Positions 7,756 to 30,284 of a stretch of 64,000 nt of DNA are shown here, one piece after another. The stretch comes from Pseudomonas entomophila L48. GTDB lineage: Bacteria > Pseudomonadota > Gammaproteobacteria > Pseudomonadales > Pseudomonadaceae. The notes beneath the pieces are model-generated. The model did no database searches and was not told the DNA's origin. It saw only the letters and a program-made list of their open reading frames with translations. Made by a program: the position numbers and the translations under genes. Numbering within the stretch: the first letter of the stretch is position 1; each line of letters opens with the position of its first letter. The DNA is taken from assembly GCF_000026105.1 (NCBI RefSeq), contig NC_008027.1, positions 2,558,001 to 2,622,000 on the forward strand, in the 5' to 3' direction.

Positions 7756-7776
7756 TTTAGGTGCACGCCGACAGCT

Positions 7777-7818
7777 TTGCAGCGTTCTCAATACCGAGCG
7801 CCGCCCGCGCGGCGCTCG
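7777..7818. repeat. GAGCGCCGC palindrome with TTGCAGCG leader (left edge of accessory block)
   Basis: CGAGCGCCGCCC at 7795 pairs with GCGCGGCGCTCG ending at 7818. Ten bases before GAGCGCCGC is TTGCAGCGT (7777-7785). The same layout recurs at 30001-30028, and inverted at 30108-30147 and 34445-34483. It sits between the convergent scoB and hddC-like genes and could also act as a bidirectional terminator. Confidence 0.7.
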
Positions 7819-7854: not shown

Positions 7855-8574
7855 CTAACGCGACGCATTGATCAACGCACCCGCCCGCTGATAATCATGG
7901 GGCACCCCGATATCGATAAACCGCCCCGACGCCTCGAACCCCAGCACGTTCAACCCGCTGTCCAGCCACTGCGGCAGCAGCTGTTCCTCCAATGAAGCCG
8001 CCTGCCCGGCCCGATGGGCGAGGTACTCCAGGCACGCACGGCGCATCCAGTAGACCCCGCCATTGACCCAGGCCTCAGCATCGGCACGGGTATGGGCAAA
8101 GGCCAGGACATGGCCACTGTCGTCAAGGGTAATGCCCGTATACCGCCGGGGTTCCCCATTGCGATAGAGCGCCAGGCAGCAGTCGGCGCGGTGCTGCTCG
8201 GCATACTGCTGCAGCGTGGCCAGGTCCAGGGTGAACCAGGTGTCGCCATTGAGCAGCAGGAAATTCTCGTCGGCCTCCGTCAGGTGTTCGAGCGCCATCA
8301 GCAACCCGCCACCTGTGCCCAGGGGCTGCGGCTCCCTCGCATAGTGCAGCGTGGCACCCCGGTAGCGTTCACCGAAGTGCTCGACGATCGCTTCGTGGCG
8401 GTAGCCAACCGAGAGCACGAAGCGCTCGATGCCCTGGTCGATCCAGTAGTCGAACAGATACTCCAGGAACGGTCGCCCGGCGACGGGCGCCATCGGCTTG
8501 GGTACATCGCTGACCACGCTGCGCAAGCGTGTGCCCAGGCCACCGGCCAGAACCACCGCGGTACGTATGGACAT
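7855..8574 (-). CDS. Sugar-1-phosphate nucleotidyltransferase (HddC-like, heptose-1-phosphate guanylyltransferase type)
   Basis: A 239-residue nucleotidyltransferase. The nucleotide-binding signature is LAGGLGTRLRSVVSDVPKPM (residues 9-28). A metal-binding Asp is in LLNGDTWF and a product-site Asp in FIDIGVPHDY. Its compact length and its position directly after a GHMP sugar kinase gene match HddC, which makes GDP-D-glycero-alpha-D-manno-heptose. A mannose- or glucose-1-phosphate enzyme remains possible, because family members differ in few visible residues. It starts 16 bases after the kinase gene stop. The pair is divergent from the aminocyclitol-like operon. Confidence 0.8.
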   Translation of the reverse strand: MSIRTAVVLAGGLGTRLRSVVSDVPKPMAPVAGRPFLEYLFDYWIDQGIERFVLSVGYRHEAIVEHFGERYRGATLHYAREPQPLGTGGGLLMALEHLTEADENFLLLNGDTWFTLDLATLQQYAEQHRADCCLALYRNGEPRRYTGITLDDSGHVLAFAHTRADAEAWVNGGVYWMRRACLEYLAHRAGQAASLEEQLLPQWLDSGLNVLGFEASGRFIDIGVPHDYQRAGALINASR

Positions 8575-8590
8575 GTCTTGGGCTCCTGTA

Positions 8591-9586
8591 TCAGGTGGGG
8601 CTGGGCTGGTAGCGCATCAACTGGCTGCCGGACTGCTCGAAGCGAAAAGGCACATGGACAAGGTCGCGCAGGCTTTCGCGGACCTGGGCTTGCCGCTCGG
8701 GCCTGACGAACAACAGCATGAAACCGCCACCGCCGGCCCCCAGCAGCTTGCCGCCAATGGCACCGGACGAGCGGGCGATGGTGTAGAGGTGGTCGATGTC
8801 TTGATTGCTGACCTGGCTGGACAGGTTCTTCTTGAGCAGCCAGCTGCAGTGCAGCAACTCGCCGAAGGCCTCCAGCGACCCTGGGCCCTGGAGGATGGCG
8901 AGTGCCTCGTCGACCATGGCATGGAGGCGGGTCAGCTCATCGAGACGCTTGCCCAGGTTGTCGATCTTCGACTGGGCAATCTTGGCCGCGATCCTGGAAA
9001 AGCCGGTGAAGAACAGCATCAGATGTGCTTGCAGCGCTTCGAGACGGGGCCTTGGCACTTCGGCCGGGGTGACGGTGAAGCCGCCTTCGCCGCGCAGGAA
9101 GTCGATACGGTTGAAGCCGCCGACCGCGGCGGCGATCTGGTCCTGCGACCCGACGCTCTCGCCGATGACCTGTTGCTCCACATGCTGGGCCAGCCTGGCC
9201 AGTGCTTCACGGGCGATAGGTTGGCCCTGCAATGCCTTCACTGCATGCAGCAGGCCGACGGTGAAGGAGGAACTGGAACCCATGCCCGAACGGGCCGGCA
9301 GGTCGCCGTCGACATGGATTTCCAGCCCGTCCTCGCAGCCCAGGTACTGCAAGACCGCGCGCACCGCGGGGTGTTCGATCTCGCGGGGGTGCATCACGTT
9401 CTCGATCCGTGAATAGGCAATTCGGAAGCGATGTTCGAAGAACGGCGGCAAGTGGCGGCAGCTGATATAGCAATACTTGTCGATGGCGGTGGACAGTACC
9501 GCGCCGCCATGGGCTGTGTACCAGGCGGGATAATCCGTGCCGCCGCCAAAGAACGAAATACGATAAGGCGTGCGGGTAATGATCAC
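8591..9586 (-). CDS. GHMP-family sugar kinase (HddA-like, heptose-7-phosphate 1-kinase type)
   Basis: A 331-residue GHMP kinase. It opens with ITRTPYRISFFGGGTDYP (residues 3-20), a sequence style typical of D-glycero-alpha-D-manno-heptose-7-phosphate kinases. The ATP loop is PARSGMGSSSSF (97-108) and the C-terminal motif is GGKLLGAGGGGF. It should phosphorylate the anomeric position of a sugar phosphate ahead of nucleotide activation by the next gene. I chose the GTG at 9584-9586 because GGGAG lies about 10 bases upstream and the product then begins at the conserved motif; a TTG eight codons upstream has no ribosome site. With HddC this would supply GDP-heptose; sedoheptulose isomerase and phosphatase would have to come from LPS-core genes elsewhere. 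Confidence 0.82.
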   Translation of the reverse strand: MIITRTPYRISFFGGGTDYPAWYTAHGGAVLSTAIDKYCYISCRHLPPFFEHRFRIAYSRIENVMHPREIEHPAVRAVLQYLGCEDGLEIHVDGDLPARSGMGSSSSFTVGLLHAVKALQGQPIAREALARLAQHVEQQVIGESVGSQDQIAAAVGGFNRIDFLRGEGGFTVTPAEVPRPRLEALQAHLMLFFTGFSRIAAKIAQSKIDNLGKRLDELTRLHAMVDEALAILQGPGSLEAFGELLHCSWLLKKNLSSQVSNQDIDHLYTIARSSGAIGGKLLGAGGGGFMLLFVRPERQAQVRESLRDLVHVPFRFEQSGSQLMRYQPSPT

Positions 9587-10000
9587 AGGCGAGCGACTCC
9601 CAATATACAACTGTGTATGTGGGGGCGTGATTCATTGTGCCGGCGGCTCACAATGCAAGCGCCATCCATTGCTGTTGTTACTTAGGCGAGTTCCCTGCCT
9701 AAGCGATGAAGTTATCATGTTGGTGTTATATAAAAAGCACTAGTCAACTTGAAGTTTACCTGCATCTTAATGGCGCGCTGAATGCCCAGCTTAGCAGGGC
9801 GGCAAGCCCATTTCGGCGCCGTTTGTCGGCAGGGTTAATGCGGCTTTTCCATGTGTTGGACACGTATTGCATCGCTGAAATCCGGTGCTATCGTAGAACT
9901 TCACCGCGCGCCTGGCAGGCAGGAAGTTTTCAGGTGAGAGGCTAGGGAAGCGTCAAGTTCTTGGTCCCACGGACAAGCAGGGAAGTAGGGGCGTTCGGTC
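9587..10000. promoter_or_regulatory. Divergent intergenic region between hddA-like gene and aminocyclitol-like operon
   Basis: About 410 bases separate the divergent heptose genes from the long plus-strand operon. No convincing gene is present; a 79-codon open frame in it has no recognisable features. The section 9700-9770 is clearly AT-richer than the rest of the block and is a natural place for promoters. A perfect 7+7 inverted repeat lies at 9681-9703 and is listed separately. Confidence 0.5.
9681..9703. promoter_or_regulatory. Inverted repeat, possible operator or hairpin
   Basis: CTTAGGC at 9681-9687 and GCCTAAG at 9697-9703 are perfectly complementary around a 9-base centre. They lie at the edge of the AT-rich part of the divergent region. 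Size and symmetry fit a dimeric repressor or activator site, but no regulator gene is encoded in the block. Confidence 0.4.
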
Positions 10001-11059
10001 ATGACTGATAATATTCAGTTTATTCAGCTTAAAAGTGCCTGTAGTGATCCGGTGACCCATGCCGAACTACCGCGCGCTATATACATCGAGTTGACGGACC
10101 GCTGTAACCTGGTCTGCCCGATGTGTCGCTGCAGCCCGGTCAAAGGCAATATCCTGCCGCTGCCGATGTTCAAGGAAATGGCGGCCGCGCTGTTTCCCAC
10201 CGCCGAGTTCGTCGACCTGCGTGGTTGGGGCGAAAGCACCATCGTGCCCGGCTTTCTCGACTACCTGGACGTGGCCCTGGGCTATCCGGTCAAGCTCAAG
10301 CTGATTACCAACGCGGTGGTGCGTAAACCGCAGCTGTGGCAGCGCCTGGGGCACGAGGGCATCACCGTTGGCGTCTCGTTCGACGCCGCCACGGCGCCGC
10401 TGTTTCGTGAACTGCGTGGTGGCGCTGACCTTCGGCAGGTGCTGGGCAACCTGTGCCTGCTCACCGAGGCGCAGCGCGAGGCCGGGCATGACCCGGCGGA
10501 AAAACTTTACCTGTGCGTGACCGTCAGCGGGCGCAACCTTGACGAACTCGAAACCATCATCTCCCTGGGTATGGAGCTGGGCGTGCGCCGGTTCAAGTTC
10601 GAACCGCTGTGGGCGCCCGACGAAGATCCCAACCGCCTGGAGTTCCACACTGAGAAGGTCGCCACGGTGATGGCCCGGCTCGGTCAATTGCAACGCCAGC
10701 ACCACCTGCAACTCGAACTGTCGGCGGCGCTGTCCGCAGCCAGCATCCAGCACCACGCCGTGAACAAGGTCTGCATCCACCCCTGGCAATACCTCTACAT
10801 CAACAGCCGTGGGCGTCTGGGTTTCTGCGACCACCTCAACGGCCGCGACGAGTTCACCTTCGGCGACTGGCAGCAGGGTGGTTTCGCGGCCTTCTGGAAC
10901 GGCCCAGAGATGCGCCAGTTGCGCGCCGAGCATCACCAGCGCCTGGGCGGGCCGGCCATCAAGCAGTGTGCCGATTGCAACTGGTGCTACGAGCGCCGCT
11001 ACATGGACCTGGAAGACTGGCTGGAGCCTGAGTGGGCCAACTACAGGGTGACCCTATGA
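10001..11059 (+). CDS. Radical SAM protein with SPASM/twitch-like C-terminus (BtrN-like candidate dehydrogenase)
   Basis: A 352-residue radical SAM enzyme. The 4Fe-4S/SAM motif CNLVCPMC has cysteines at 35, 39 and 42. A C-terminal auxiliary set is at Cys258, Cys276, Cys323, Cys326 and Cys329 (CX17C, then CX2CX2C), ending CNWCYERRYMD. The CX17C plus CX2C layout is like the twitch auxiliary cluster I recall for BtrN, the 2-deoxy-scyllo-inosamine dehydrogenase of butirosin biosynthesis, though this protein is longer. With a DOI-synthase-like and an aminotransferase gene in the same operon, oxidation of an aminocyclitol C-OH is the leading guess. A different radical SAM reaction (epimerisation, methylthiolation) cannot be excluded. 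First gene of the operon; its stop overlaps the next ATG. Confidence 0.8.
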   Translation: MTDNIQFIQLKSACSDPVTHAELPRAIYIELTDRCNLVCPMCRCSPVKGNILPLPMFKEMAAALFPTAEFVDLRGWGESTIVPGFLDYLDVALGYPVKLKLITNAVVRKPQLWQRLGHEGITVGVSFDAATAPLFRELRGGADLRQVLGNLCLLTEAQREAGHDPAEKLYLCVTVSGRNLDELETIISLGMELGVRRFKFEPLWAPDEDPNRLEFHTEKVATVMARLGQLQRQHHLQLELSAALSAASIQHHAVNKVCIHPWQYLYINSRGRLGFCDHLNGRDEFTFGDWQQGGFAAFWNGPEMRQLRAEHHQRLGGPAIKQCADCNWCYERRYMDLEDWLEPEWANYRVTL

Positions 11060-11877
11060 ACCTTCGCGACATGACCCTCGACCCACCCTGGCTGGCGAAC
11101 TTCTACGACCCGGCCTTGTTCGATGCCAGCGCCGGGGACGCCGACTCCGCCAACACCATCGCCTGGTACCGCGAGCAACTGCGTGGGCCCGCGCGCCAGG
11201 TGCTGGACATCGGTTGCGGCACCGGGCGCCTGGCCCTGCCGCTGCTGGAGGATGGCCACCGGGTGCACGGGGTGGATATCAGCGAGGCGATGCTGGGCTA
11301 CCTGGCGGCCAAGGCTGGGGCCCTCGCGCCACAGGTCAGGGCCCGTTTGAGCTGGGCTCACGGCAGCGTGCTTGATGAACCCCTGCGGGAGACTTTCGAC
11401 GCCCTGGTGGCCGCCGATGATTTCGTGACCCATTTCGACCGCGACCAGTTGCAGCGCTTCATGGCGATCGCCCATGCCGCGCTGCGCCCCGGCGGCCAGT
11501 TGCTGACTGATATGCGCGAACGCGCGGCGGCCCGCCTTGCGGCGGCTGCAGCACCATTCCCCAAGCCGATGCAGAGCCACGGCCTGTCAGGAGGCATCGC
11601 CAGTGAGCAGGGGCAGTTGCATGTGGCGATGATGGGGTGGGAGGAATACGACCCCGAAAGCCGCTGGCTGGTCAGCCACCAGCTGTACAGTTTCATCGAT
11701 AGCCAGGGGCGCGAAGCGCGGCGTGACTGGAAGACCATTCGCCAGCGCAACCACAGCAATGCCGAACTGGTCGAAGCCGCGCAGCGGGCGGGTTTCGCGG
11801 TCGAGCGCATCATCGGGCGCGACCTTGATGGCGTGCCGGGCGAACAGGGCGGGTTCTTTCAGTTGGTACGCCCATGA
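11056..11877 (+). CDS. Class I SAM-dependent methyltransferase
   Basis: A 273-residue protein. The SAM-binding motif VLDIGCGTGRLALPLL is near residues 49-64, motif II GVDISEAML follows, and AALRPGGQLLTDM is the usual post-II segment. It fits a small-molecule N- or O-methyltransferase and not an rRNA methylase. Its ATG overlaps the radical SAM stop (ATGA) and its stop overlaps the next ATG, so it is an integral member of the operon. The likely acceptor is the sugar or cyclitol product; the position is unknown. Confidence 0.85.
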   Translation: MNLRDMTLDPPWLANFYDPALFDASAGDADSANTIAWYREQLRGPARQVLDIGCGTGRLALPLLEDGHRVHGVDISEAMLGYLAAKAGALAPQVRARLSWAHGSVLDEPLRETFDALVAADDFVTHFDRDQLQRFMAIAHAALRPGGQLLTDMRERAAARLAAAAAPFPKPMQSHGLSGGIASEQGQLHVAMMGWEEYDPESRWLVSHQLYSFIDSQGREARRDWKTIRQRNHSNAELVEAAQRAGFAVERIIGRDLDGVPGEQGGFFQLVRP

Positions 11878-12965
11878 AGCCTGCGCTGGAGCTGATCTGG
11901 GTGGTGCCCTCGCTGGCCAGCTTGGGCGGCAGTGAATATGCGGCCGTGACCTTTGCCCGGCTGGTGGCTGGCGACGGTCATCGTGTGCGCTTGCTCACCG
12001 GGCCTGAAGTGCACCCGGCATGGCGAGCCCTGTTGCAGGTCGAGGGCCTGAGCGTGGTTCAGGATCCGCACGGCAGCGCGACGGCGATGGCCGACACGTT
12101 GGCGTGCCTGCTGGCGGCACGGCCCGCCGACCTGATCCAGTTCATGCCCATCGAAGCCCATTGCCTAGCGTGGCTGGACCGGCGCACGGCGGTGCCGGTC
12201 ATCGGTTGGGAACCCACCGACCTGAGCCCCCGATGCTGGTGGCTGCCAAACACCTTGAGACAACGCCTCCATGAGCTCGACGGGCTGTTGGTGCTCAACC
12301 CCGATGCAGCCATTCATGCCCACGAACACTACGCCTACCGTGGGAGCGTCAGCGTACTGGCCAACACCTTGCTCAGTGTGCCTGCCAAGGTTTCGGCGCC
12401 CCGCGAGCTGGGGCAGGTGGTGGGGTGCATTTCGCGCCTGTCGGCGGAAAAGGGCCTGGAGTTCCTGCTGGCGGCCTTCGCCTTGCTGCTTGAGCGCTGC
12501 CCACGCGCCACCTTGCGCCTCTGGGGCGAAGGCGAGGACCAGGCGCGCCTGGAAAACCTGGCGCGGATGCTGGGCATCGAGGCATCGGTGGACTTTGCCG
12601 GCGGCTTCGAACCTTTTGGCGGCATCGATGACGTGGCTGCGAGCGCCGATGTGTTCGTGCTGAGCTCACTGTTCGAAGGCGCGCCGGTCGCGCTCCTGGA
12701 GCTGGCGGCCAGGGGCCGGCCGCTGGTGGCCTCGGCGACCAGCGGTGCCCGCTGGGTGTGCGGGCAGGCATACCCGTGGCTGACGGCGGTCGGCGATACC
12801 CGCGCCATGGCCGATGCCCTGGCGGATGCACTGAACGGCCAAGGGCGGTCGACCCTGGGGGCGCAGTTGCGCCAACGCTTCGAGCAGCAGTTTGCCCCGT
12901 CCCAGGCACTGGCCACCTTGAACGCGGCCTATGCCCGTGTGCTGGCGACAGGCCTGCGGCCATGA
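11874..12965 (+). CDS. GT4-family glycosyltransferase
   Basis: A 363-residue GT-B fold glycosyltransferase. A glycine-rich N-terminal loop (SLASLGGSEY, about 14-23) is present, and the C-terminal half contains ISRLSAEKGLEFL. The retaining-enzyme EX7E-type motif appears as LFEGAPVALLELAA. In 2-deoxystreptamine pathways the enzyme that attaches GlcNAc to the cyclitol (BtrM/NeoM/KanF) is also a GT4 enzyme, and the next gene here is a PIG-L deacetylase, the enzyme that normally follows it. That role is inference from neighbourhood. Start and stop overlap the adjacent genes by four bases. Confidence 0.85.
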   Translation: MKPALELIWVVPSLASLGGSEYAAVTFARLVAGDGHRVRLLTGPEVHPAWRALLQVEGLSVVQDPHGSATAMADTLACLLAARPADLIQFMPIEAHCLAWLDRRTAVPVIGWEPTDLSPRCWWLPNTLRQRLHELDGLLVLNPDAAIHAHEHYAYRGSVSVLANTLLSVPAKVSAPRELGQVVGCISRLSAEKGLEFLLAAFALLLERCPRATLRLWGEGEDQARLENLARMLGIEASVDFAGGFEPFGGIDDVAASADVFVLSSLFEGAPVALLELAARGRPLVASATSGARWVCGQAYPWLTAVGDTRAMADALADALNGQGRSTLGAQLRQRFEQQFAPSQALATLNAAYARVLATGLRP

Positions 12966-13669
12966 GCAGCCGGGGCGATGCCTGGCTGCTGTCGCCCCAC
13001 TGCGACGACATCGCCTATTCGCTGGCGGGGCGCTTGCTGAGCGGGACGGAGCGAGGGCCGGGCGTGCGCCTGCTGACGATCTTTTCCCAGAGCCGGTTCG
13101 CCCCATACGCGCCGACGCTCAATACCCAGGCGCAGATTTCCAGCTGGCGCCAGGCTGAAGAAGCACGTTTCTGCGCCGCGCTACACCTTGCCCACGAGAG
13201 CCTGGACCTGGCCGAAGCCCCGCTGCGTGGCTATCCCGATGTCGATTCGCTGTTCATCGTCGACGGCGTGATACCGGACGACCCGGCGCTCGAACACCTG
13301 GAGCAGCAGTTGCGCCAACGCCTGGCCCAGGCCCGCCCGGCCAGGGTCTATGCGCCACTGGGGGTAGGCGGGCACATCGACCACCTGCTCACGCGCAGGG
13401 CGGCGCAACGGGTGTTCGCCGATATCTGCCCGCTGCTGCTCTATGAAGACTTGCCCTATGCCGGCGAGTTGTCGGCAGGCGCGCTGGCACACCAGTTGGC
13501 GCGCACCGCCCGGGGTTTGCGGCCCTTGCTTACGCCGTTGGCGGACTGGCTGCCGGAAAAACTCAGGCACCTGGCCGGTTATGCCTCCCAGGTGGCGGAA
13601 AAAGACCTGGCCTCGGTGGCAACCCATGCTCATTTGATCGGAGGTGAACGTGTCTGGACCCTTGGCTGA
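12962..13669 (+). CDS. PIG-L/LmbE-family N-acetylglucosaminyl deacetylase
   Basis: A 235-residue zinc-dependent deacetylase. The metal-binding motif SPHCDD (His13, Asp15, Asp16) is near the N-terminus and a second metal ligand is in GVGGHIDH. Members remove the N-acetyl group from GlcNAc-containing conjugates; BtrD/NeoD do this on N-acetylparomamine in aminoglycoside pathways. The ATG at 12962 overlaps the preceding glycosyltransferase stop. The 3' end overlaps the next gene by about 20 bases. Placed directly after a GT4 gene, it suggests transfer of GlcNAc followed by deacetylation. Confidence 0.88.
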   Translation: MSSRGDAWLLSPHCDDIAYSLAGRLLSGTERGPGVRLLTIFSQSRFAPYAPTLNTQAQISSWRQAEEARFCAALHLAHESLDLAEAPLRGYPDVDSLFIVDGVIPDDPALEHLEQQLRQRLAQARPARVYAPLGVGGHIDHLLTRRAAQRVFADICPLLLYEDLPYAGELSAGALAHQLARTARGLRPLLTPLADWLPEKLRHLAGYASQVAEKDLASVATHAHLIGGERVWTLG

Positions 13670-14459
13670 TATCTGTATCCTGACCTTCGCCGTGGACCGC
13701 CCGCAGGCGTTGGCGCGCTGTATCGCCAGTGTCGCCGCGCAGCAGGGCGGCCTGCGTGTCGAGCATCGCATCCTGTCCGAGCGGGCCATGGCACTGCGCT
13801 CGCATCCAGCCTTGGTGGGGTGGCGTGAGTGGGTGGTGTGGCAGCCGCTCGAAGGGCAGCCTTTCCAGGGCGCTTCCTCGCAGCGCATGGCACGCCTGCG
13901 GGCCGCGGCGTTGGCCCAGGTGGAGCAGCCGCTGGTGGCGTTCCTCGATGATGACAACGCACTCGAACCTGAGCACCTGCAGACCCTCTGCCAGTGCCTG
14001 GAAGACCCGCAAATGCAGGCGGCCCACGCCTGGCGCCAGATCCTCAACCCGGACGGCACGCCGTTCCCGTTCACCCATTACCCCTGGCACGACGATCCGG
14101 TGGTGGCCAACAGGATGTACCGCTGGGGCCTGGCCCATGGCGTGTTCAGCCCCGGCAGCCCGGTGATGCACGACGGCGTGCGCGGCCCCGAGGAGCCCGA
14201 CAGCTGCGCCACCGTGGACATGAACGAATGGCTGTTCCGCACCGAGTGCCTGCGCCGCCTGGGCTTCGACGAGCGCTTCAGCCAGCGCGAAGTGGACCTG
14301 CGGGTCGGTGAAGACGACAAACTGTTCCAGCGGGTGCGCGAGCAAGGGGTGAAGTTTGCCTGCTCCGAGCGCGCCACCGTGCGCTACTACCTGGGCGGGG
14401 TGTCCAACCTGCGCCAGACCAGCGGCCCGACCCAGGCCAGCGCCGGGGTCCACCCATGA
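13650..14459 (+). CDS. GT2-family glycosyltransferase
   Basis: A 269-residue GT-A fold inverting glycosyltransferase. The product opens with DICILTFAVDRPQAL, which is typical of GT2. The metal/nucleotide DXD-type motif is AFLDDDN (Asp100-102), and a catalytic-region acidic cluster is EVDLRVGEDDKLF. I chose the GTG at 13650 because GGAGG lies five bases before it; a GTG two codons earlier overlaps that ribosome site. It could add the heptose or another sugar made by the flanking genes; donor and acceptor are unknown. Its stop overlaps the next ATG. Confidence 0.82.
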   Translation: MSGPLADICILTFAVDRPQALARCIASVAAQQGGLRVEHRILSERAMALRSHPALVGWREWVVWQPLEGQPFQGASSQRMARLRAAALAQVEQPLVAFLDDDNALEPEHLQTLCQCLEDPQMQAAHAWRQILNPDGTPFPFTHYPWHDDPVVANRMYRWGLAHGVFSPGSPVMHDGVRGPEEPDSCATVDMNEWLFRTECLRRLGFDERFSQREVDLRVGEDDKLFQRVREQGVKFACSERATVRYYLGGVSNLRQTSGPTQASAGVHP

Positions 14460-15730
14460 GCGGGCTTGCCTTGTTCGGTGGCACCCCGGTGCACAGCCAG
14501 GCCTGGCCGCAATGGCCGCAGTCCACGGTCAAAAGCGAGCGCGCCCTGCTCACGGTGATGCGCAGCGGGCGTTGGTCGGTCAGCGGCCTGGAGACCGACG
14601 GCAGCCCGACCTGGGACCAGCGCTTCGCCGAGGCCTTTGCCCATTACAACGGCGTGCGCCACTGCGTGCCCACGGCCAATGGCACCAGTGCCCTGATGGC
14701 GGCCATGCAGGCCCTGGGCATCGGCGCCGGGGACGAGGTGATCGTCCCGGGGCTGACCTGGGTGGCCTGTGCCAGCGCGGTCCTGGCGATCAACGCGGTG
14801 CCGGTCATCGTCGATATCGACCCCCACTCTCTGTGCCTCGATCCCCGTGCGGTGGAGGCGGCGATCGGCCCGCGCACCCGGGCGATCATGGTGGTGCACT
14901 TGTACAACGCCATCGCCGACCTCGACGCGCTGCTGCCGATGGCCCGCCGCCACGGCCTGCACCTGATCGAGGATTGCGCCCAGGCCCATGGCGCCCAGTG
15001 GCGGGGGCGGCATGTGGGCACGCTCGGTGCGGTCGGCACCTTCAGCATGCAGAACGGCAAGGTCCTGACCAGCGGCGAGGGCGGCGCCTGCATCTGCGAC
15101 GACCCCGCCTTGGCCGAGCGCATCTTTCGCCTGCGCGCGGATGGTCGGCAGCGGGTCACCGATTCGGTCCCGGCGGGCTACATGACGCTGGAGGAGGGCG
15201 GTCGGGGCTTTGCCCAGAATGCCTGTCTCAGCGAACCCCAGGCGGCGATCCTGCTCAGCCGCCTGGAAGACCTGGACCATGAAAACGCCCAGCGCGCCCG
15301 CCAGGCCCAGCGCTTGCGCCTGTTCCTCCAGGAGATCGGCGGGTTCGCTTTCCAGCAGACCGCCGAAGGCACCGAGCGAACCACCCTGTACCATTTTCCG
15401 GTGCGCCTGGAGGGCCCTGAGTTCGAGGGTGTGCCGGTAGAGCAAGTATGCCGGGCTCTGTCCGCCGAACTGGGCTGCTGGGTGCACCCGCCTTATCCGC
15501 CGATGGATGCCTTCGCGGTGCTTGCGCCCGGCCACTCCCAGCGCCTGTTGACGGCCCCGTGGGTGCCGCAACCGCTGCGTCGCGCCCAGGCCGCGCATCG
15601 CCAGCACGTGATGCTGGCCCATTGGTTGTTCCTCGCCGATGACCAGGCCATGGTCCATGTCGCGCAGGCGTTCGCCAAGGTCAAGGAGCACGCGCACGAA
15701 CTGCGTGCGGGCCAAGGAGAAGGGCTATGA
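14456..15730 (+). CDS. DegT/DnrJ/EryC1 PLP aminotransferase, (deoxy-)scyllo-inosose aminotransferase type
   Basis: A 424-residue PLP enzyme. The PLP lysine is in SMQNGKVLTSGEGG (Lys202) and the pyridine-binding Asp is in IEDCAQAHGA (Asp173). The unusual SMQ..KVLTSGEGG context is the one I associate with L-glutamine:scyllo-inosose and 2-deoxy-scyllo-inosose aminotransferases (StsC, BtrS/RbmB). Sugar-nucleotide aminotransferases usually have a different sequence around the lysine. The next gene encodes a DOI-synthase-like cyclase, which would make its substrate. It overlaps both neighbours by four bases. Confidence 0.88.
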   Translation: MSGLALFGGTPVHSQAWPQWPQSTVKSERALLTVMRSGRWSVSGLETDGSPTWDQRFAEAFAHYNGVRHCVPTANGTSALMAAMQALGIGAGDEVIVPGLTWVACASAVLAINAVPVIVDIDPHSLCLDPRAVEAAIGPRTRAIMVVHLYNAIADLDALLPMARRHGLHLIEDCAQAHGAQWRGRHVGTLGAVGTFSMQNGKVLTSGEGGACICDDPALAERIFRLRADGRQRVTDSVPAGYMTLEEGGRGFAQNACLSEPQAAILLSRLEDLDHENAQRARQAQRLRLFLQEIGGFAFQQTAEGTERTTLYHFPVRLEGPEFEGVPVEQVCRALSAELGCWVHPPYPPMDAFAVLAPGHSQRLLTAPWVPQPLRRAQAAHRQHVMLAHWLFLADDQAMVHVAQAFAKVKEHAHELRAGQGEGL

Positions 15731-16905
15731 ACTCGCTTCTGCAGGATATGCCGGCGCGGAGATCGATCCAGGAGCAGCCGGTACGGACCCTGGACTTCCG
15801 CTTCGGTGAGCAGCGCATGGAAATGCTGCTGGGCTACTGCTTCACCGATCAAATTGCCCAGCGGGTCAGCGAGCAGGCCGCGCATGTCCTGCTGGTGGCT
15901 GATCGACGGGTCTACGAACTATGGGGGGCGCCGTTGCTCGCGGCCCTGCAACGCCACCTGCCGGTGACCTGCCTGTTGGTGGAGGCGATCGAGGCGGCCA
16001 AGACCCTCGGCGTGCTGCAGGATCTGCTCGACCAGGCCGTGGCCGCTGGCGCGACCCGGCGCTCCGTGGTGGTGGCGTTCGGCGGCGGCCTGACTGGCAA
16101 CCTGGCCGGGATGCTGGCCGGGTTGCTGTACCGTGGCATTCGCCTGGTGCACATCCCGACCACGCTGCTGGCGATGTCCGACTCGGTGCTGTCGCAGAAG
16201 CAGGCGGTCAACGGCAGCGCCGCGAAGAACATGTACGGCCTGTACCACCCGGCAAGCCTGTGCTGCGTCGATGTGCAGTACCTGCAGAGCCTGCCGGCGC
16301 CGGCGTTCTCCGCCGGGGTGGTGGAGCTGTGCAAGAACGGCCTGGCCTTCGATGCCGCGACCGTGCCAGCGCTTGAACGCCTGGCGGCGGACACCACGCC
16401 GGCCGGCTGGATCGAGCTGGTCCAGCTGGGGATCCAGGCCAAGCAGCAATTGCTGCTGGACGACCCGCTGGAACACGACCTGGGCGTGGTGCTGGAGTAT
16501 GGGCACACCGTCGGCCATGCCCTGGAGCTGGAGACCGGCACCCTGACCCACGGCCATGCGGTCGGTCTGGGGATGCTGGTGGCCGCTGCCATCGCCCGCG
16601 AGCGTGGCTGGCTCAGCGAACAGGAAGAACACCTGCATGCGCAGCTGCTGCTGCGCTGCGGCGCGCCCCTGAGCCTGGAGAACCTGCCGGCGTTCGACCA
16701 GGTAATGGCGCGCGTCCGCCAGGACAACAAGCGCGGGCGCATTCGCCTGAATGCCGGGCAATACCCTTTCGTGCTGCTGCGCGGCATCGGCCAGCCCGCC
16801 ATGAGCCAGGGCCAGCCGCTGGTGGGGGTGGACGAGGGCGAGATCCGCCGCGCCTACGCCAAGTTGCAGGCGGGCTACTACAGCGCGCTGCGCGTTGCCG
16901 AGTAG
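15727..16905 (+). CDS. 2-deoxy-scyllo-inosose synthase-like sugar phosphate cyclase
   Basis: A 392-residue member of the dehydroquinate-synthase fold. The NAD loop is GGGLTGN (119-125), followed by HIPTTLLAMSDSVLSQKQAVN (142-162), VVELCKN with Glu200, EYGHTVGHALE (257-267), and a C-terminal DNKRGRIRL with GIGQPAM. Dehydroquinate synthases have DSSVGGK..VN and a GVxGD NAD loop. DSVLSxKQAVN with GLTGN and the DNKRG/GxPAM tail is the pattern of 2-deoxy-scyllo-inosose synthases (BtrC family), which cyclise glucose-6-phosphate to the carbocycle of aminoglycosides. I am fairly sure of the subfamily; activity on another sugar phosphate is possible. The ATG overlaps the aminotransferase stop. Confidence 0.85.
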   Translation: MNSLLQDMPARRSIQEQPVRTLDFRFGEQRMEMLLGYCFTDQIAQRVSEQAAHVLLVADRRVYELWGAPLLAALQRHLPVTCLLVEAIEAAKTLGVLQDLLDQAVAAGATRRSVVVAFGGGLTGNLAGMLAGLLYRGIRLVHIPTTLLAMSDSVLSQKQAVNGSAAKNMYGLYHPASLCCVDVQYLQSLPAPAFSAGVVELCKNGLAFDAATVPALERLAADTTPAGWIELVQLGIQAKQQLLLDDPLEHDLGVVLEYGHTVGHALELETGTLTHGHAVGLGMLVAAAIARERGWLSEQEEHLHAQLLLRCGAPLSLENLPAFDQVMARVRQDNKRGRIRLNAGQYPFVLLRGIGQPAMSQGQPLVGVDEGEIRRAYAKLQAGYYSALRVAE

Positions 16906-16942
16906 ACCTTTCCGACCACCGCTCGCGATAAGGAATGTCGTG

Positions 16943-18301
16943 ATGCCCGAACCGAGTTTCAACCTGGCCTGGGTGGATGAAGCCCGCCTGGCCAACACCG
17001 TTGACCAGGCCAACCGCGAGCAACGGCCGCTGTACCTGATCGTGCTCGCCACCAAGCCGTGCTACATCAAGCTGGCCAGCCTGGTGCTGGCCTGCGAGGC
17101 GCTGCGGTTGCCGTTCCTGCTGGTCGACACCGGCCAGCACTACGACCCGGTGCTGACCCAGGCCAGAGAGGAGCTGGGTTACGAACACCTGTTGGCGGTG
17201 AGTTTCGGTATCCGTGGCTCATTGTTGGGGCGCACCGCGCAACTGGCACTGGCCATCGAATGCCTTGATGCCCGGCTCAAGGCCGTTGGGTTGCGCCAGA
17301 GCGCGGTGCCGCTGGTGTCCGGGGACACCGCCACGGCGGCGATGTTCGCCCAGTTCTGGTACCTGGCCCATGGCGCACGCAGCGTGCACGTCGAGGCCGG
17401 GCTGCGCAGCTACGGCCCTGATCGTGGTGCCTGGGCGAACCTGCAGGATCTGGCCGAACAACGCCAGCTGCGCTGGCAGCGGTTTTACGAAGAGCCCTTC
17501 CCGGAAGGGGTCTGCACCACGCTGGCCAGTGTGGTCGGCGACCTGCTGCTGGCCCCGGTGGAGCGCAATGTCGAGCACCTGCTGCGTGAGGGCTACCCGC
17601 TGCCGCAGCTGCGCCAGGTCGGCTCCCTGAGCAGTGACGCGGTGCGCCTGGCCTTGCCACGGGCTGCTCGCAGTCAATTGTTCAGCCTGTACCCGGAGCT
17701 GGTCCTGGGCCGCTGGCTGCGGGTGGACCTGCACCGGCGCGAGAACATGACCGCCCAGGCCTTGCAGGCGGTGTTGCAGGGGCTGGGGCGACTGGCCCTC
17801 GACGGCGTGCAGGTGGTGCTGGTGCGCACCAACGCCCTCGACGGCGCACTGGTCCAGCATCAGCTCGCCGGCCTGCTGGACGAAGTCCGGCTCAAGGGCG
17901 TGGTGGTACAGCCGATGTGGCCGCACTACACCGATGTCATCCACTTCCTGAGCTCCGGCCATTGCCTGGCGCTGTACACCGACAGCGGCGGCCTGCAGGA
18001 GGAGGCCACGGTGCTGGGCGTGCCTTGCCTGACCTGCCGCCTGAGCACCGACCGCCCGGAAACGGTGCTCGACGCGCAGAGCAACCTGCTGCTGCCGCCG
18101 CTGTCGGCGGCGTTCGTTCATCGCCACCTGCGCGATGTGCTGGCGCGCCCGACGGCCGAGGCCTGGCCGGGTTTGCAGCGCGGCCGCACGCTCTATGGCC
18201 AGGCCGTGGGGCAGGGCATCGCCGAGCTGCTCAAGGTGTACGAGGCACCCGCCGTGCTGGCGGGCGCCCAGGCACAGTACTTGCCGCGGGTGTCAGAGTG
18301 A
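16943..18301 (+). CDS. UDP-GlcNAc 2-epimerase-like GT-B protein
   Basis: A 452-residue protein resembling WecB/NeuC-type UDP-GlcNAc 2-epimerases. It has a P..VDTGQHYD segment, SVHVEAGLRSY, and C-terminal LYTDSGGLQEEATVLGVPCLTCR, all characteristic of that family. The central segment VDLHRRENM matches the usual HRREN motif. It is longer than the typical 370-380 residues, with extra sequence around GLRSYGPDRGAWANLQDL. It could make a ManNAc-type sugar or, given the fold, hydrolyse or transfer a nucleotide sugar. ATG chosen for AAGGAA upstream; it starts 37 bases after the cyclase gene, the largest gap within the sugar part of the operon. Confidence 0.8.
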   Translation: MPEPSFNLAWVDEARLANTVDQANREQRPLYLIVLATKPCYIKLASLVLACEALRLPFLLVDTGQHYDPVLTQAREELGYEHLLAVSFGIRGSLLGRTAQLALAIECLDARLKAVGLRQSAVPLVSGDTATAAMFAQFWYLAHGARSVHVEAGLRSYGPDRGAWANLQDLAEQRQLRWQRFYEEPFPEGVCTTLASVVGDLLLAPVERNVEHLLREGYPLPQLRQVGSLSSDAVRLALPRAARSQLFSLYPELVLGRWLRVDLHRRENMTAQALQAVLQGLGRLALDGVQVVLVRTNALDGALVQHQLAGLLDEVRLKGVVVQPMWPHYTDVIHFLSSGHCLALYTDSGGLQEEATVLGVPCLTCRLSTDRPETVLDAQSNLLLPPLSAAFVHRHLRDVLARPTAEAWPGLQRGRTLYGQAVGQGIAELLKVYEAPAVLAGAQAQYLPRVSE

Positions 18302-20190
18302 ACCGCCCGGCGCAGGTCACCACCGCCAAGGCTGCGTCTGCGCGCCTGTGTGGTGGGCTGGGCGGTGGCGCGGGCGATCTGCGGCCCTGGCTGTCGCCCA
18401 TGTGCCAGGCCCTGGGGCTTGAGGCCGACCACCTGCCGTCCACCGCGCACAGCCATACACTGTGGTGCGGTGAGCTGTTCAACCGGGCCCAGTTGCAGGC
18501 ATGGCTGGGCTTGGCGGCGCAGCCGTGTACCGATGACGAGCTGCTGACCCAGGCGTTCCTGGCCTGGGGCGAAGTGACGACCCTGAACCGGATCAACGGC
18601 AAGTTCGCCCTGGCGCACTGGAGCGCCGAGCGGCAGCGGCTGGTGCTGGCCTGCGACCGTACCACGCAGTTCACGGTGTTCTATGGCCGACTGAATGAAC
18701 ACTGGTTGTTCAGCAGCGACTTCGGCGCCTTCCGCCCGTTGCACCGGCAACTGGACGTCGACCGGCAGACGCTGGCGCTGTTCGTGCGCTACGGTTTCGT
18801 TCCGGCGCCGCACACCTTCTACCGGCAGGTGCGCAAGCTGCAGCCCGGCCACTGGGTGTCACTGTCGGCCCACGACACCGGCGAAGTGACGCAACAGCCC
18901 TATGCACCTTCGTCCTGGGCGTACCTGCCGACCACCCAGCGCAAGCCCATCGAGGCAGGGCCCGCCACGCAGGCCTTCGAGCGCCATCTGCTGGCGGCCG
19001 TCGAAGCCCGGCTGGACGGCTCCACGGCAGGCGCCTTCATGTCCAGCGGGTTCGATTCGACCCTGGGCGCGGCGCTGCTGCAGAAAACCCTGGGCAAGCC
19101 CATCCACACGTTCACCGCAGGTTTCCAGGGCATGCATTGCAACGAGGCCCCGGACGCCGCTGCCATCGCCCGACACCTGGGGACCCTGCACCACGAGATC
19201 CGGCTCGATGACGCGGCGCTGGCAGGCGTGGTGCCTGACATCCCCTATGCCTATGGCGAACCCCTGGCCGACTCGTCGCAACTGCCCTCGATGCTGTTGG
19301 CCCGCGCCGCGAGCGAGTACGTCGACACGGTGTTCGCCGGCGATGGCGCCGATTGCGTGCTGGGTGAGTACGCCCAGCGCCTGGACATGTACCGCAGCGT
19401 GCTCCGTGCACGCCGTTTGCCGCCTTGGGGCAGGGCTGCGCTGGGCCATGGCCTGGAGCTGGCCGAACGGTGCTCGACGCCGCTCGCTACAGGCCTATCC
19501 CGTTGGCTCGGTCGACGCCTGGCGTTGGACGACCCCGGCCGTGATGCTTTCGAGGACGTGCGGGGCGTGCTGGCCGCCAATGGCCTGGGGCAGGTTGAGC
19601 GCGTGCTCGGCGCGCGGGTGCTGGACCCAGGGCGGCTGGTGCTCGGCGAAGGCTGGCTGGATATTCCCTGGCCGGGGACCGACGCCGAGCCACCCAGGTT
19701 GTCGGTGTTGCTCGACCAGTTGGTGCAGGTGCAAGGGGAAATCCTTATCGCGCCCGTGACGCAGAAGACCATCGGTGCCTGCGACCACGCCGGCCTGCGG
19801 GTGGCCATGCCGTTTCTCGACGGGGCACTGCTGGACTTCGCCAGGGGCTTGCCCCACCCCCTCAAGCACCGCAAGCACACTTCGAAATGGCTGCTGCGCC
19901 AGGTGGCCTACTCGTACATCCCCAGGGCTTTGCTCGACCGCAAGAAGCTGGGCTTCAGCATCTGGGTGAGCCCGCTGCTGCGCCACCACCTGCGTGACTG
20001 GGCCGAGCACCTGCTGGCGCCGGGCCGTCTGCGCGACGAAGGCTTCTTCGACGTGGCCCAGGTGCGCCGGGAGTGGACGCGGCTGCTGCACCACGGCGAG
20101 CACTTCAGGGAAGAGCGGCTGTGGTCGGTGCTGATGTTTCAACAATGGCTCGACAGCAGCCGGGCCTTCAGCTTGCGGGGGAACGGATGA
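18298..20190 (+). CDS. Asparagine-synthetase-like ATP-dependent amide ligase lacking the glutaminase cysteine
   Basis: A 630-residue protein with the two-domain AsnB layout. The N-terminal Ntn-like domain (about 1-200) does not start with Met-Cys, so the glutaminase nucleophile is absent. The C-terminal synthetase domain has a pyrophosphatase-type ATP loop SSGFDST (249-255) and FAGDGADCVLGEY. Glutaminase-less relatives such as beta-lactam synthetase use ATP to form amides with other nucleophiles. Here it may acylate an amine of the cyclitol or sugar, or form an amide on the carrier. I chose the GTG at 18298, whose GTGA overlaps the previous stop; an upstream extension would overlap the epimerase-like gene. 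Confidence 0.78.
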   Translation: MNRPAQVTTAKAASARLCGGLGGGAGDLRPWLSPMCQALGLEADHLPSTAHSHTLWCGELFNRAQLQAWLGLAAQPCTDDELLTQAFLAWGEVTTLNRINGKFALAHWSAERQRLVLACDRTTQFTVFYGRLNEHWLFSSDFGAFRPLHRQLDVDRQTLALFVRYGFVPAPHTFYRQVRKLQPGHWVSLSAHDTGEVTQQPYAPSSWAYLPTTQRKPIEAGPATQAFERHLLAAVEARLDGSTAGAFMSSGFDSTLGAALLQKTLGKPIHTFTAGFQGMHCNEAPDAAAIARHLGTLHHEIRLDDAALAGVVPDIPYAYGEPLADSSQLPSMLLARAASEYVDTVFAGDGADCVLGEYAQRLDMYRSVLRARRLPPWGRAALGHGLELAERCSTPLATGLSRWLGRRLALDDPGRDAFEDVRGVLAANGLGQVERVLGARVLDPGRLVLGEGWLDIPWPGTDAEPPRLSVLLDQLVQVQGEILIAPVTQKTIGACDHAGLRVAMPFLDGALLDFARGLPHPLKHRKHTSKWLLRQVAYSYIPRALLDRKKLGFSIWVSPLLRHHLRDWAEHLLAPGRLRDEGFFDVAQVRREWTRLLHHGEHFREERLWSVLMFQQWLDSSRAFSLRGNG

Positions 20191-21233
20191 GCGCGATACG
20201 AACGGCCTTGATCGGCTGCGGCACGGTGTGCGACTGGCACCTGGAAGAGCTGGACAAGCTCAGGGACCTGTTCGACGTGCGCTGCCTGTGCGACAGCGTG
20301 CCGGGCAAGGCCCAGGCGCTGGCGCAGAAATGGCGGGTAGGCGGCTGGACCGAGGATTTCCAGCAGGTGCTGGATGACCCGCTGATCGAATGCGTGTGGA
20401 TCCTGACCCCGCCGTTCAACCACGCCGAACTGGCCATCGCGGCACTGCGGGCCAACAAGCATGTGTTCTGCGAGAAGCCCCTGGCCAAGACCTCGGCGCA
20501 ATGCCAGGAGGTGGTGCGGGTAGCCGAAGACAGCCAGCGGGTGTTCCTGCTGGGCTATCCGATGCGCTTTTCCGCCGATGCGGGCAACTTGCGCAAGGTC
20601 GTGCAAAGCGGCGTGCTGGGGCGCCCGGTGGTGCTGCGCGATGTCTGGGCGGTGTGCAAGGGCGCCGACAGCCCGGCCATCCACGATGCCGAGCTGGGCG
20701 GTGGGGTGGTGTTCGAGCATACCCACTGGCTGGACTTCGTGACCTGGATGTTCGGCCCGGCGAGAAAGGTTTATGCCTCAACCCGCAAGCTCAAGCTCGG
20801 GCCGACCAGCGCCCACGACACGGTGATCGCGGTGATCGATTTCGTCTCCGGCGACCAGGCGCTGTGGTCCGAGTCCTGGGCCGCCAGCGGCCTGGGCTGG
20901 GAGCCGTTATGCGTGGGGCGCGCCGGGATCCGTCCGACCTTCGATGTGGTCGGCGAGCAGGGCGTGCTGCAGTTCCCCAACGCCCAAGGCGAGAAAGTCC
21001 TGAGCCTTTACCGCTACGACCGGCCCGAAAAACCGGTCGACAGCTGGACCTGGCAGCACGACTGGGGCACCAACGACGACGCTTTCCCCAACGAGCATCG
21101 CCACCTGTACGCCTGCATCCGCCACGGCACGCCGCCGGTGTGCCAGGCCCGCGACGGCCTGCGCGCGGTGCAGCTGGCCGAAGCCATTCTCGAGTCCAGC
21201 CGCAGCGGCCAGCCGGTGTTCCTGCAGCCATAG
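20187..21233 (+). CDS. Gfo/Idh/MocA-family NAD(P)-dependent oxidoreductase
   Basis: A 348-residue protein with an N-terminal Rossmann fold (TALIGCGTVCDWH, about 6-18) and the family signature FCEKPLAKT near residue 93. The C-terminal substrate domain has EHTHWLDFVTWMFG. Members oxidise or reduce hydroxyl groups of inositols and nucleotide sugars. In aminoglycoside pathways, NAD-dependent enzymes can replace the radical SAM dehydrogenase at the second oxidation, so this may be a second cyclitol dehydrogenase or act on a sugar. The ATG overlaps the ligase stop. It is the last gene of the overlapping sugar set. Confidence 0.88.
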   Translation: MSAIRTALIGCGTVCDWHLEELDKLRDLFDVRCLCDSVPGKAQALAQKWRVGGWTEDFQQVLDDPLIECVWILTPPFNHAELAIAALRANKHVFCEKPLAKTSAQCQEVVRVAEDSQRVFLLGYPMRFSADAGNLRKVVQSGVLGRPVVLRDVWAVCKGADSPAIHDAELGGGVVFEHTHWLDFVTWMFGPARKVYASTRKLKLGPTSAHDTVIAVIDFVSGDQALWSESWAASGLGWEPLCVGRAGIRPTFDVVGEQGVLQFPNAQGEKVLSLYRYDRPEKPVDSWTWQHDWGTNDDAFPNEHRHLYACIRHGTPPVCQARDGLRAVQLAEAILESSRSGQPVFLQP

Positions 21234-21256
21234 CCGATCAACAGGGAGGGGATAGC

Positions 21257-24200
21257 GTGCAGCAGTTCAATCAGATCGTGTCGGTCAATTTCCAGGGCGT
21301 GGTGGTGGTGTTCGGCCGCGAAGTGGCGGGCAAGAACGCCATCTACTTCGATGTGCTCGGCCAGGACGTCGACAGCGACGACGATGACCTCGACTGGTCG
21401 GGCTTCACCGCGGTGACCTTCACCGAACAGGTGCGCCAGGTGGGCATGAGCATCATCGCCGTGGATTGCGATGCCTCGACCCTGGTGCCGTCGCTCGCGC
21501 CGTTCCGGGTGGTGACCGACCAGAAGTACATTTCGGTCATCCAGCAGTCCATGAACGGCACCTTGTACGTGAACCGTTTTCGCCTACTGAAAAACAAGTC
21601 GGGCACCGACCAGAAGACCACCGACTACGAACTGTCACCGGCATGGGAAGTGCGCTACGCCCGCAGCCACAAGGAGGATGTGCCCGCCGACAAGTCCGAC
21701 AAGCAGGACTTCCTCGACCCCGACGGCCAACCCTTCCTCGAGCCTTCCCTCGAACTGTCGATGATCACCGGCGTGACCGATGGCCATTTCGACGTGCTGC
21801 TGCTGCCGATCGCCGGCAGTGAGAGCTTCGCCTGGCAGTTCCTGGCCCTGGATGCCAGCGCCACCTCGGTCAAGCTGTTCAATTTCCCCGCCACTGACAA
21901 TGGCCTGTTCGACGTGGCTGGAAAGCCTGTGGACAGCGACCTGCGCATCCAGCCGGACAGCGTCTTCGGCGTGGCCAAGGCCGGTACCAGCACCGCGCTG
22001 CCGATCACCTCGGCGCCGCGCGCGGTGACCTACGTCAAGCATGAGAAGGTGGTGCAGCCCGACGGTTCGAGCATCGGCGTGCGCCGCGCCACCCGGGTGA
22101 TGATCACCTTGAGCGTCGCCGATGGCACCGTCACGCTGGACTCCGCCATCGGTGTGAACGGCACCATGGCCTACCTCTCGGGGGTGATTGTCACCTCCAA
22201 CATTGTCCCGGCCGAGTTCGACCTGCGCTTCGACGGCGTGTCCTGCCTCAACCTGCTGCCGCCCGCCAGCGGTACCAACCCATTGGCGATCAAGGGCCCG
22301 TTCGAGATCGGCCTGATGCTGGCGCCGGGCGTCAAGGGCGATGGGCTGAAGGTGCTGGGCGGGGCGGCCCAGGCCGAGGAGAAGAACCTCGCGCCCTATG
22401 TCTGGATCGTCGATGGCGACAAGCTCGAAGTGGGCTTTGGCAATGGCAGCGCGCGGGTCAGTTGCCGCACCTTGCACCAGGTGCTGTTCAACGACGTATG
22501 GAGCGACCTGCATATCCGCTACGCGGGCAAGGGCGACAATCCCTTCACCCTGACGGTGAACGACGCGCCGGTACCGCTCACGCCCTGCAGCACCACGGCC
22601 GAGCCCTGCGGCACGGCCATGGCGCTGGTGGCGGCCGGCAGCAACGGTTTCGTCGGCGCGCTGAAACGGCTGGCCATCACGGTAGGGGGCACCGCTGCAG
22701 TGCAGCTGGACTGCAACAGCGTCAACTACAGCGACAACCCGCCGACCACGCTCAACCAGGCCGCCTCGGGTGTGAAAGTGACGGTGCAGGGCGCGCGCCT
22801 TGAACCCTCGGCCTCGCCGGTCAACAGCGACATGAGCGGTGAGTTCTACATCGATGCCATGGGCCTGACCTACTACGCAGGCCTGGCCGGGTTCATCCGC
22901 CCGAACGCGGCCACCTGCCTGATCGACGGCTCCGACGGCCTGCTGCACCTTTACTACCCCGGCGACGGCAACCTGCTGACCGTGGCGCAGTTCTCCACCC
23001 AGTCGGCGCGTGCCACCTTCACTGTCGACTGGACCACGCAATGGGGCAGCAGCGGGGCCAGGGCGGCGGCGCTGGAGCTGCCCGCGACTTCGGTGGCGCT
23101 GTACCGTGGCGTGAGCTGCGAGCACTGGGCGCCGGTGGCGGCGCGGCTGCTGGTGGCCCCGGACACCACCCAGAGCGGCTTCGTCAACTTCGTCGCCCAT
23201 CGGGTGGGCACCTACATGAACAGCACGCGGATCACGGTCGCCGCCTCCAGCGTGTCCGAGTTGCTCTGCGACATCCACGTGGAGGCGTCGCAAAGCGTCG
23301 GCACGGAAACCTGGCGGGGCTTGCCACGGGATATCGCCCAGCTGACGCAGATCTGGAACGGCGCCGCCGCCAACAACCCGGACGACCCCCAGGTCCTCGA
23401 CCAGTCCAAACCCTATTTCGACTATGCGGGCAGCGCGCCAGCGGTGCTGGTGCCCACCCGCACGGGCGGCAACGGCAGCTTCTTCCTGCTGACCTCGGTG
23501 CCGCAGCTGCCGGTCACGCTGACCTCGGTGGCGGTCGCTGCGGGGGCCACCGATGAATTCGTGGTGGTCGACATCACCCTGGCCGCGCCGCCGCGCTGGC
23601 CGGCCAGCGCCACCCTCAACCAGCACTGGCCCGCCGTGCCGGCAACGCCGCGTACCTTGCTCGACGTGTTCGCCGGCAAGGCACCGCACTACGACTACAG
23701 CGCTGTGACCACCGCCGGCAGCCGCGCCTACGGGCTGCCCCTGAGCCTGGCGCGCTCCGACGAGCAGGTCAGCCATGTGCTGGTGTTCGTGCGTGACGAG
23801 CAGAAGGACTTTGCGGTGACGGTCAGTACCGCCACGCAGCCCCTGCTGTGCAACGTGGTCATCTGTGGCGTCAGCCTGCCCGACGTACCCCGCGCGCAGG
23901 CCGAGTTTGTCAAGGTGCTCAACGGCGACGCCACCGGTTATACCTATCCCAGCGGCTACCAGACCGGCCTGGCGACCTTGATCTATGCCATGGGCAACGG
24001 CTTGAGCGCCGACGTGGTCGACACCCCGGCACCGGCGCCTGAAGGCGGCGCGTTCGCCTATGCCGGGCTGCTGCGCGTGCTGTTCCAGGGGCCCAGCTAC
24101 GATGCTCCTGGGATGGCCCCCCAGGCCTTGACCAACGCGGCGGTGATCCAAGGCGCGCGGCTGGCGTTCAATGGCCGGGACGATGCCATTCGCGGCTCGA

Positions 24201-28369: not shown

Positions 28370-28398
28370 CCCACAACCCACGTAAAGGAGCTACGAAC

Positions 28399-28944: not shown

Positions 28945-28965
28945 CCCCTGCAAGGAGCACGCAAC

Positions 28966-30147: not shown

Positions 30148-30284
30148 CCTATCGCCAAGCACCTGGCCGGCATACAGCTCTCGTGCCTGCCTAATACTTT
30201 AGTCGTAGCCCCTCGGCCCCCAACCACGCCCCCCTTATAGACTCGCCCGGTAATCCGACAATCCAACAACAAAAGGACATTACC

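Follow-up and report, generated by a model that had tools for sequence, protein, structure and literature searches.

A genomic island of Pseudomonas entomophila L48 with a candidate pathway to a 2-deoxystreptamine glycoside bearing hexosamine and heptose

Introduction

What is made by the ten biosynthetic genes at 10001-21233 of a 64,000-nucleotide stretch of the genome of the insect pathogen Pseudomonas entomophila L48? The stretch, referred to here as the window, is NC_008027.1 2558001-2622000, forward strand (GCF_000026105.1), from a genome that forms a single contig of 5,888,780 bases. An original prediction, made from the sequence alone, saw one operon for a paromamine-type product built on 2-deoxystreptamine (2-DOS). 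The analysis presented here points to a genomic island of 22.5 kb (about 7757-30266) whose pathway would lead to a 2-DOS glycoside with both a hexosamine and a heptose, and which would owe its presence to horizontal acquisition and its persistence to selection; this reading is given a probability of about 0.6. Comparisons rest on a survey of the best 80 of 155 relatives of 2-deoxy-scyllo-inosose (DOI) synthase (DOIS), the basis of all counts out of 80. Statements on gene presence in these loci, which carry L numbers, refer to the DNA stretches examined around each cyclase.

The aminocyclitol core

The ten genes are intact open reading frames (ORFs) on one strand, with a 4-base overlap at seven of the nine junctions under the chosen starts, which bears out the overlapping operon first described. 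Its extent was drawn too small, the whole gene unit (7855-29994) also taking in a divergent heptose-type pair, a LamG gene and a gene for a 342-aa protein. Pfam places the ten products in the radical S-adenosylmethionine (SAM)/SPASM, methyltransferase, glycosyltransferase family 4 (GT4), PIG-L, glycosyltransferase family 2 (GT2), DegT aminotransferase, DHQ-synthase-type cyclase, Epimerase_2, asparagine synthase and GFO/IDH/MocA families, in agreement with the methyltransferase, second glycosyltransferase, amide ligase, epimerase-like protein and oxidoreductase originally named.

The central enzyme is the cyclase encoded at 15727-16905 on the plus strand. Its best PDB match, at 2.4e-60 and 207.9 bits, is BtrC, which makes DOI in butirosin biosynthesis; dehydroquinate synthase (DHQS) is next at 7.5e-37 and 130.6 bits. 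Against the NCBIfam aroB model it scores about 219.6 bits, under the cut-off of 305; because the genome carries a separate AroB elsewhere, which at 382 bits exceeds that curated cut-off, the cyclase is not the housekeeping DHQS. The phylogeny originally suggested as a check places it with BtrC in a 101-row clade of a 107-row tree (SH-aLRT 100), with DHQS, EEVS and EboD outside, and a 25-row tree that included no EEVS row is concordant (21-row clade with BtrC, support 100/100). The DOIS clade includes loci from organisms that we take to be known aminoglycoside producers. The catalytic residues K141, E235 and E243 of BtrC are conserved as K158, E249 and E257, the last position being N in the DHQS rows. 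Homology thereby assigns the cyclase to the DOIS class, as had been proposed. Its closest named relative is that of P. entomophila COR5 (94% identity), followed by those of Pseudomonas lactucae (77%), Rhizobiales GAS188 (66%) and Burkholderia alba (63%); more distant kin, at 42-48%, are found in cyanobacteria, Chitinophaga and Sorangium.

The predicted L-glutamine:DOI aminotransferase (14456-15730, plus strand) is likewise assigned by homology to the BtrS class. Its closest solved relatives are DOI aminotransferases (PDB 5w70, 1.4e-110; 5w71, 7.3e-93; 2c7t, 1.1e-92), which confirms the scyllo-inosose-type enzyme first suggested; the next family follows at 3.6e-51, with 178 bits as against 373.

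Clusters for 2-DOS aminoglycosides are defined in a review by C-, S- and E-type genes (PMC5461906). The C- and S-type genes are present in the island. Oxidation towards 2-DOS would be carried out by island enzymes, in the first place by the radical SAM/SPASM-twitch enzyme (10001-11059, plus strand), a proposed 2-deoxy-scyllo-inosamine dehydrogenase in the role of BtrN. The butirosin pathway likewise uses a radical SAM enzyme instead of an E-type dehydrogenase. Pfam recognizes SPASM above its cut-off and Radical_SAM below, and a single-sequence PDB search gave no match at E<=0.001; a family profile search ranks BtrN first, at 2.3e-12. Cysteines C258, C276, C326 and C329, invariant in 55 rows, agree with a single twitch cluster, and BtrN holds one such auxiliary 4Fe-4S cluster with four Cys ligands. 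Of the BtrN-like radical SAM enzyme originally described, the family stands, and BtrN identity is weakly suggested by the profile match.

Proposed hexosamine and heptose arms

A hexosamine arm would be supplied by the GT4 glycosyltransferase (11874-12965, plus strand; Glyco_trans_1_4, 1.1e-24), a proposed hexosaminyltransferase onto 2-DOS, and the PIG-L de-N-acetylase (12962-13669, plus strand; PIG-L, 1.4e-11). Both families are as first given, and the two genes also lie side by side in L027 and L072, both from Streptoalloteichus, where the GT4 similarity is weak. PIG-L homologues occur in 27 of the 80 loci, and the island protein has weak PDB matches to glycopeptide-antibiotic deacetylases.

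The paromamine pathway envisaged by the original prediction keeps its DOIS/aminotransferase core and its GT4/PIG-L pair; what it missed is a putative heptose arm, to which two lines of evidence point. The first is the pair of minus-strand genes just upstream of the operon for an HddC-like nucleotidyltransferase (7855-8574; Pfam NTP_transferase) and an HddA-like GHMP kinase (8591-9610, start codon uncertain), with heptose-1-phosphate and heptose-7-phosphate as putative substrates; HddC and HddA are their best NCBIfam models despite scores below cut-off. L004 and L005 keep the HddC-like gene together with the operon, and HddA-like homologues occur in these two and in four hygromycin-type loci. 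Homology with P. lactucae DNA extends over window positions 8218-9585 and 9999-29994, so the pair is part of the transferred unit.

The second line is the co-occurrence of heptose genes with the GT2 glycosyltransferase (13644-14459, plus strand), a proposed heptosyltransferase on that ground. GT2 homologues are found in eight of the 80 loci (L004-L007, L024, L034, L043 and L061), every one of which carries hddA, hddC, gmhA or gmhB homologues, and the remaining 72 have neither. The Moorena cluster has GmhA- and GmhB-like genes, below cut-off, with homologues in Oscillatoria; the L48 genome has, outside the island, gmhA (207.4 bits against a cut-off of 209.45) and a gmhB-like gene (106.2 against 149.6). 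The heptose of hygromycin B reportedly derives from sedoheptulose-7-phosphate.

A proposed pathway

The product inferred as most likely is an aminoglycoside-like compound, for which we propose the following steps. The cyclase would convert glucose-6-phosphate to DOI, and the aminotransferase would act twice, installing both amines, the intermediate between the two transaminations being oxidized by the radical SAM enzyme, with the GFO/IDH/MocA oxidoreductase as a less likely candidate. GT4 would then add an N-acetylhexosamine, possibly C2-epimerized by the WecB-like protein, for deacetylation by PIG-L. Housekeeping GmhA and GmhB, together with the HddA-like kinase and the HddC-like nucleotidyltransferase, would furnish a nucleoside diphosphate-heptose for transfer by GT2, a step suggested by the co-occurrence. 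The methyltransferase, amide ligase and oxidoreductase may tailor the product.

These last genes, all on the plus strand, encode a SAM-dependent methyltransferase (11056-11877; Methyltransf_25, 1.8e-19), whose nearest homologues beyond the Pseudomonas loci are in L006 and L007; an asparagine-synthetase-like (AsnB-like) amide ligase (18298-20190, likely start GTG 18298; Asn_synthase, 1.6e-58) with the N-terminus VNRP, devoid of an N-terminal cysteine; and the GFO/IDH/MocA oxidoreductase (20187-21233, likely start 20187; GFO_IDH_MocA, 1.1e-26), with inositol 2-dehydrogenase as best NCBIfam model (140.6 bits against a cut-off of 355). The UDP-N-acetylglucosamine 2-epimerase-like (WecB-like) protein (16943-18301, start near 16943 and uncertain; Epimerase_2, 2.6e-32, scanned from 16895) reaches 107.9 bits with the wecB model, below the cut-off of 210. 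Homologues of the AsnB- and WecB-like genes occur among the 80 loci in L004 and L005 only, so these genes are of no help in placing the product.

A probably transferred unit in the ato operon

The island lies between atoA and a short-chain fatty acid transporter gene, and splits the ato operon in the window. Of the 30 best-scoring atoA loci, 26 have the transporter gene next to atoA; the other four are the window's own, one more carrier of the cluster and two in which adjacency was not seen. At island-free loci the flanking alignments stop at 7747-7777, mostly 7753-7758, and restart at 30265-30301, mostly 30267. An imperfect inverted repeat of 57 nt (77%) is found near the two ends, at 7759-7815 (plus strand) and 30108-30164 (minus strand), and reads as REP/hairpin-like. 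The P. lactucae unit adjoins phosphoenolpyruvate mutase and OprD genes, with no ato genes in the stretch examined; these different neighbours indicate a module at two different sites.

Among 398 Pseudomonas genomes, including that of the window, the cyclase (E<=1e-40) occurs in ten, four with the window type (93-100%) and six with another type (39-41%). In three relatives the twelve genes from hddC to the oxidoreductase are free of stops, with coverage complete or nearly so, and dN/dS values of 0.04-0.31 per gene indicate purifying selection; the gene set is therefore not due to chance. Most likely the island arrived by horizontal transfer and is maintained by selection.

Two further genes complete the unit, both on the plus strand. 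A 2370-aa LamG-domain protein (21257-28369; Laminin_G_3, 5e-24; GTG start after a G-rich stretch) is encoded 23 bp downstream of the oxidoreductase gene; homologous DNA lies alongside the unit in P. lactucae, and coverage is full in one relative and partial in two. The final gene, for the 342-aa protein (28966-29994), is covered in one relative. Its orthologues of at least 98% are in the four genomes (of 398) that carry the window-type cyclase; P. lactucae has a 79% homologue, and distant ones (27-35%) are in four other genomes. The protein has no Pfam match, and its predicted structure (pLDDT 93.4) suggests beta-sandwich domains. The family counts 77 homologues at E<=0.001, many metagenomic and the named ones including Salipiger, Phaeobacter and Aestuariivita, and so widespread a family is not restricted to islands of this kind.

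Weighing the alternatives

Several observations weigh against the proposed pathway. The HddA and HddC models give 142.4 and 174.6 bits, against cut-offs of 600 and 300, and no hddA was found in the Oscillatoria and Moorena genomes examined. The nominal Fisher p of 3.4e-11 for GT2 and heptose genes overstates their co-occurrence, because only three lineages are involved. BtrN does not appear to be the closest fold to the radical SAM enzyme, and searching the island with two queries at 1e-15 turned up no E-type dehydrogenase. GT4 similarity to L027 and L072 is about 31% over 170 aa. The approximately unbiased (AU) test does not reject a placement of the window subclade on the DHQS side, equivalent to an early DOIS branch (p 0.187), and both cyclase trees carry long-branch warnings. 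In the P. lactucae copy the ORFs for the radical SAM enzyme, the cyclase and the LamG protein are split or shortened, through sequencing error or decay. A scan of the 14 island proteins, smaller ORFs not included, recognized no resistance, export or regulatory genes. The hygromycin B cluster is reported to provide for self-resistance by a phosphotransferase and by transporters (PMC6804068).

The product might be a paromamine-type 2-DOS aminoglycoside devoid of heptose, hddA and hddC serving another glycan and GT2 adding an ordinary hexose. DOIS, aminotransferase, GT4 and PIG-L are enough for paromamine save the oxidation step, and the hdd-like genes are divergent as well as below the cut-offs of their models. 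This is nevertheless unlikely, in view of an hddA/hddC pair that travels with the operon between species, and of GT2 and heptose genes that occur together in eight loci and are both missing from the other 72.

Quite unlikely is a core derived from DOI that is not 2-DOS, with a single amine and a radical SAM enzyme that performs epimerization, dehydration or decarboxylation; BtrN ranks first in the profile search, and four invariant auxiliary cysteines fit the single cluster that BtrN has.

It is a little less probable still that the glycoside is bound to a carrier, such as the LamG protein or a surface glycan, rather than being a diffusible antibiotic. The LamG gene follows the oxidoreductase gene closely and was co-transferred, the scan revealed no resistance or export gene, and surface glycans are the best-known setting of HddA and HddC enzymes. 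However, no flippase or polymerase was recognized among the same 14 proteins, LamG homologues are confined to L004 and L005 among the 80 loci, with none in Oscillatoria or Moorena, and hygromycin B is a soluble antibiotic.

That the cyclase is a DHQS or another sugar phosphate cyclase is hardly credible: the shared superfamily, the automatic naming of some relatives as 3-dehydroquinate synthase and the early branch left open by the AU test are outweighed by the lead of BtrC over any DHQS in the PDB search, by the DOIS clade and catalytic residues, with E257 for N, and by the separate AroB.

Relation to known systems

The 2-DOS glycoside with hexosamine and heptose can be set beside several known gene clusters. 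The loci L061 (Streptomyces hygroscopicus NBRC 13472), L024, L034 and L043 appear to be hygromycin B-type clusters; they share with the island DOIS, DOI aminotransferase, an HddA-like kinase, a GmhA-like gene and GT2, the last at 33-39% identity. L061 encodes an oxygenase of PhyH type, and a zinc alcohol dehydrogenase that we regard as E-type; neither was found in the island, whereas the PIG-L, radical SAM, AsnB-like and WecB-like proteins of the island were not found in the L061 stretch. The PhyH-type oxygenase, which had no match among the 14 island proteins, is linked to the orthoester of hygromycin B. With butirosin the island shares BtrC- and BtrS-class enzymes, GT4, PIG-L and a radical SAM enzyme replacing the alcohol dehydrogenase, but the radical SAM similarity is weak, heptose-type genes are extra in the island, and no ribose or hydroxybutyrate side-chain genes were recognized there.

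Also comparable are the cyanobacterial loci of Oscillatoria PCC 10802 (L006) and Moorena SIO3I8 (L007), for which we know of no product. They share the radical SAM, methyltransferase, GT4, PIG-L, GT2, aminotransferase, DOIS and HddC-like genes, and their clusters include GmhA- and GmhB-like genes, but they are without hddA, AsnB, WecB or Gfo homologues; Moorena additionally has LegB- and PseC-like genes.

The novelty within Pseudomonas originally supposed does not hold as stated. An eLife pan-genome paper reported, from genome annotation, an aminoglycoside-like cluster of Pseudomonas Ps639 with homologues of ParC, ParS, NeoD, NeoM, NeoN, NeoL and ParQ (PMC8719888). It resembles the island in DOIS, DOI aminotransferase, deacetylase and glycosyltransferase, and differs in gene set, with its NeoL, NeoN and ParQ homologues and a 2-oxoglutarate oxygenase (PMC8719888). 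The type-B loci, taken as Ps639 counterparts (cyclase 38-41%), have no homologue of the island radical SAM, GT2, hdd, AsnB, WecB or Gfo genes in the stretches examined. Other Pseudomonas isolates have a predicted cluster of streptomycin type, which is of a different kind (PMC5953339). A search of open-licence literature on entomophila and inosose found nothing beyond PMC8719888, and no description of the combined hexosamine and heptose 2-DOS genes was found there; both are weak evidence of absence.

To our knowledge, the two sugar arms on 2-DOS occur in separate families only. A new scaffold, combining 2-DOS with a paromamine-type hexosamine, a hygromycin-type heptose and an amide, possibly with the giant LamG protein, from a mobile island of an insect-associated Pseudomonas and with a related form in cyanobacteria, is a tentative proposal with somewhat less than an even chance. 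If true, it would place a 2-DOS class joining both arms outside the actinomycetes, in a tractable Gram-negative genus, with machinery shared with cyanobacteria. The proposal makes testable a heptosyltransferase role for the GT2 enzymes of hygromycin-type clusters and a BtrN-like radical SAM step beyond butirosin.

Other observations

Other cyclase loci were noticed as well. A cyanobacterial DOIS-like clade of 31-36% identity (L049, L060, L063, L067, L071, L074, L075, L079, L080, L081 and L083) has no DOI aminotransferase homologue in the stretches examined, and its cyclase possibly has another downstream use. A second DOIS locus type with PIG-L is present in Pseudomonas (L015, L023, L048, L050, L065 and L066), to which a group of loci from Photorhabdus and Xenorhabdus (L025, L041, L042, L044, L045 and L047) is related. 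In L046 (Streptomyces atratus OK807) the DOIS gene is followed by a radical SAM gene (33% to that of the window), two GT2 genes and a GFO/IDH/MocA gene; no DOI aminotransferase homologue was found in the stretch examined, possibly reflecting a different DOI-derived pathway. At L002 (G000:C1:2758021-2762001) a long ORF combines a membrane-type N-terminal part with a second AroB-like cyclase at its C-terminal end, and adjoins a UbiA-like ORF; this is read as an EboD/ebo-type operon, with reference to the ebo literature (PMC5133447).

Elsewhere in the window, a large ORF with a Tc-type toxin repeat domain (TTc_toxin_rep) lies at 35576-38341, followed to about 47.7 kb by more large ORFs, which have no Pfam match, and by a patatin-domain ORF on the minus strand (43775-47698).

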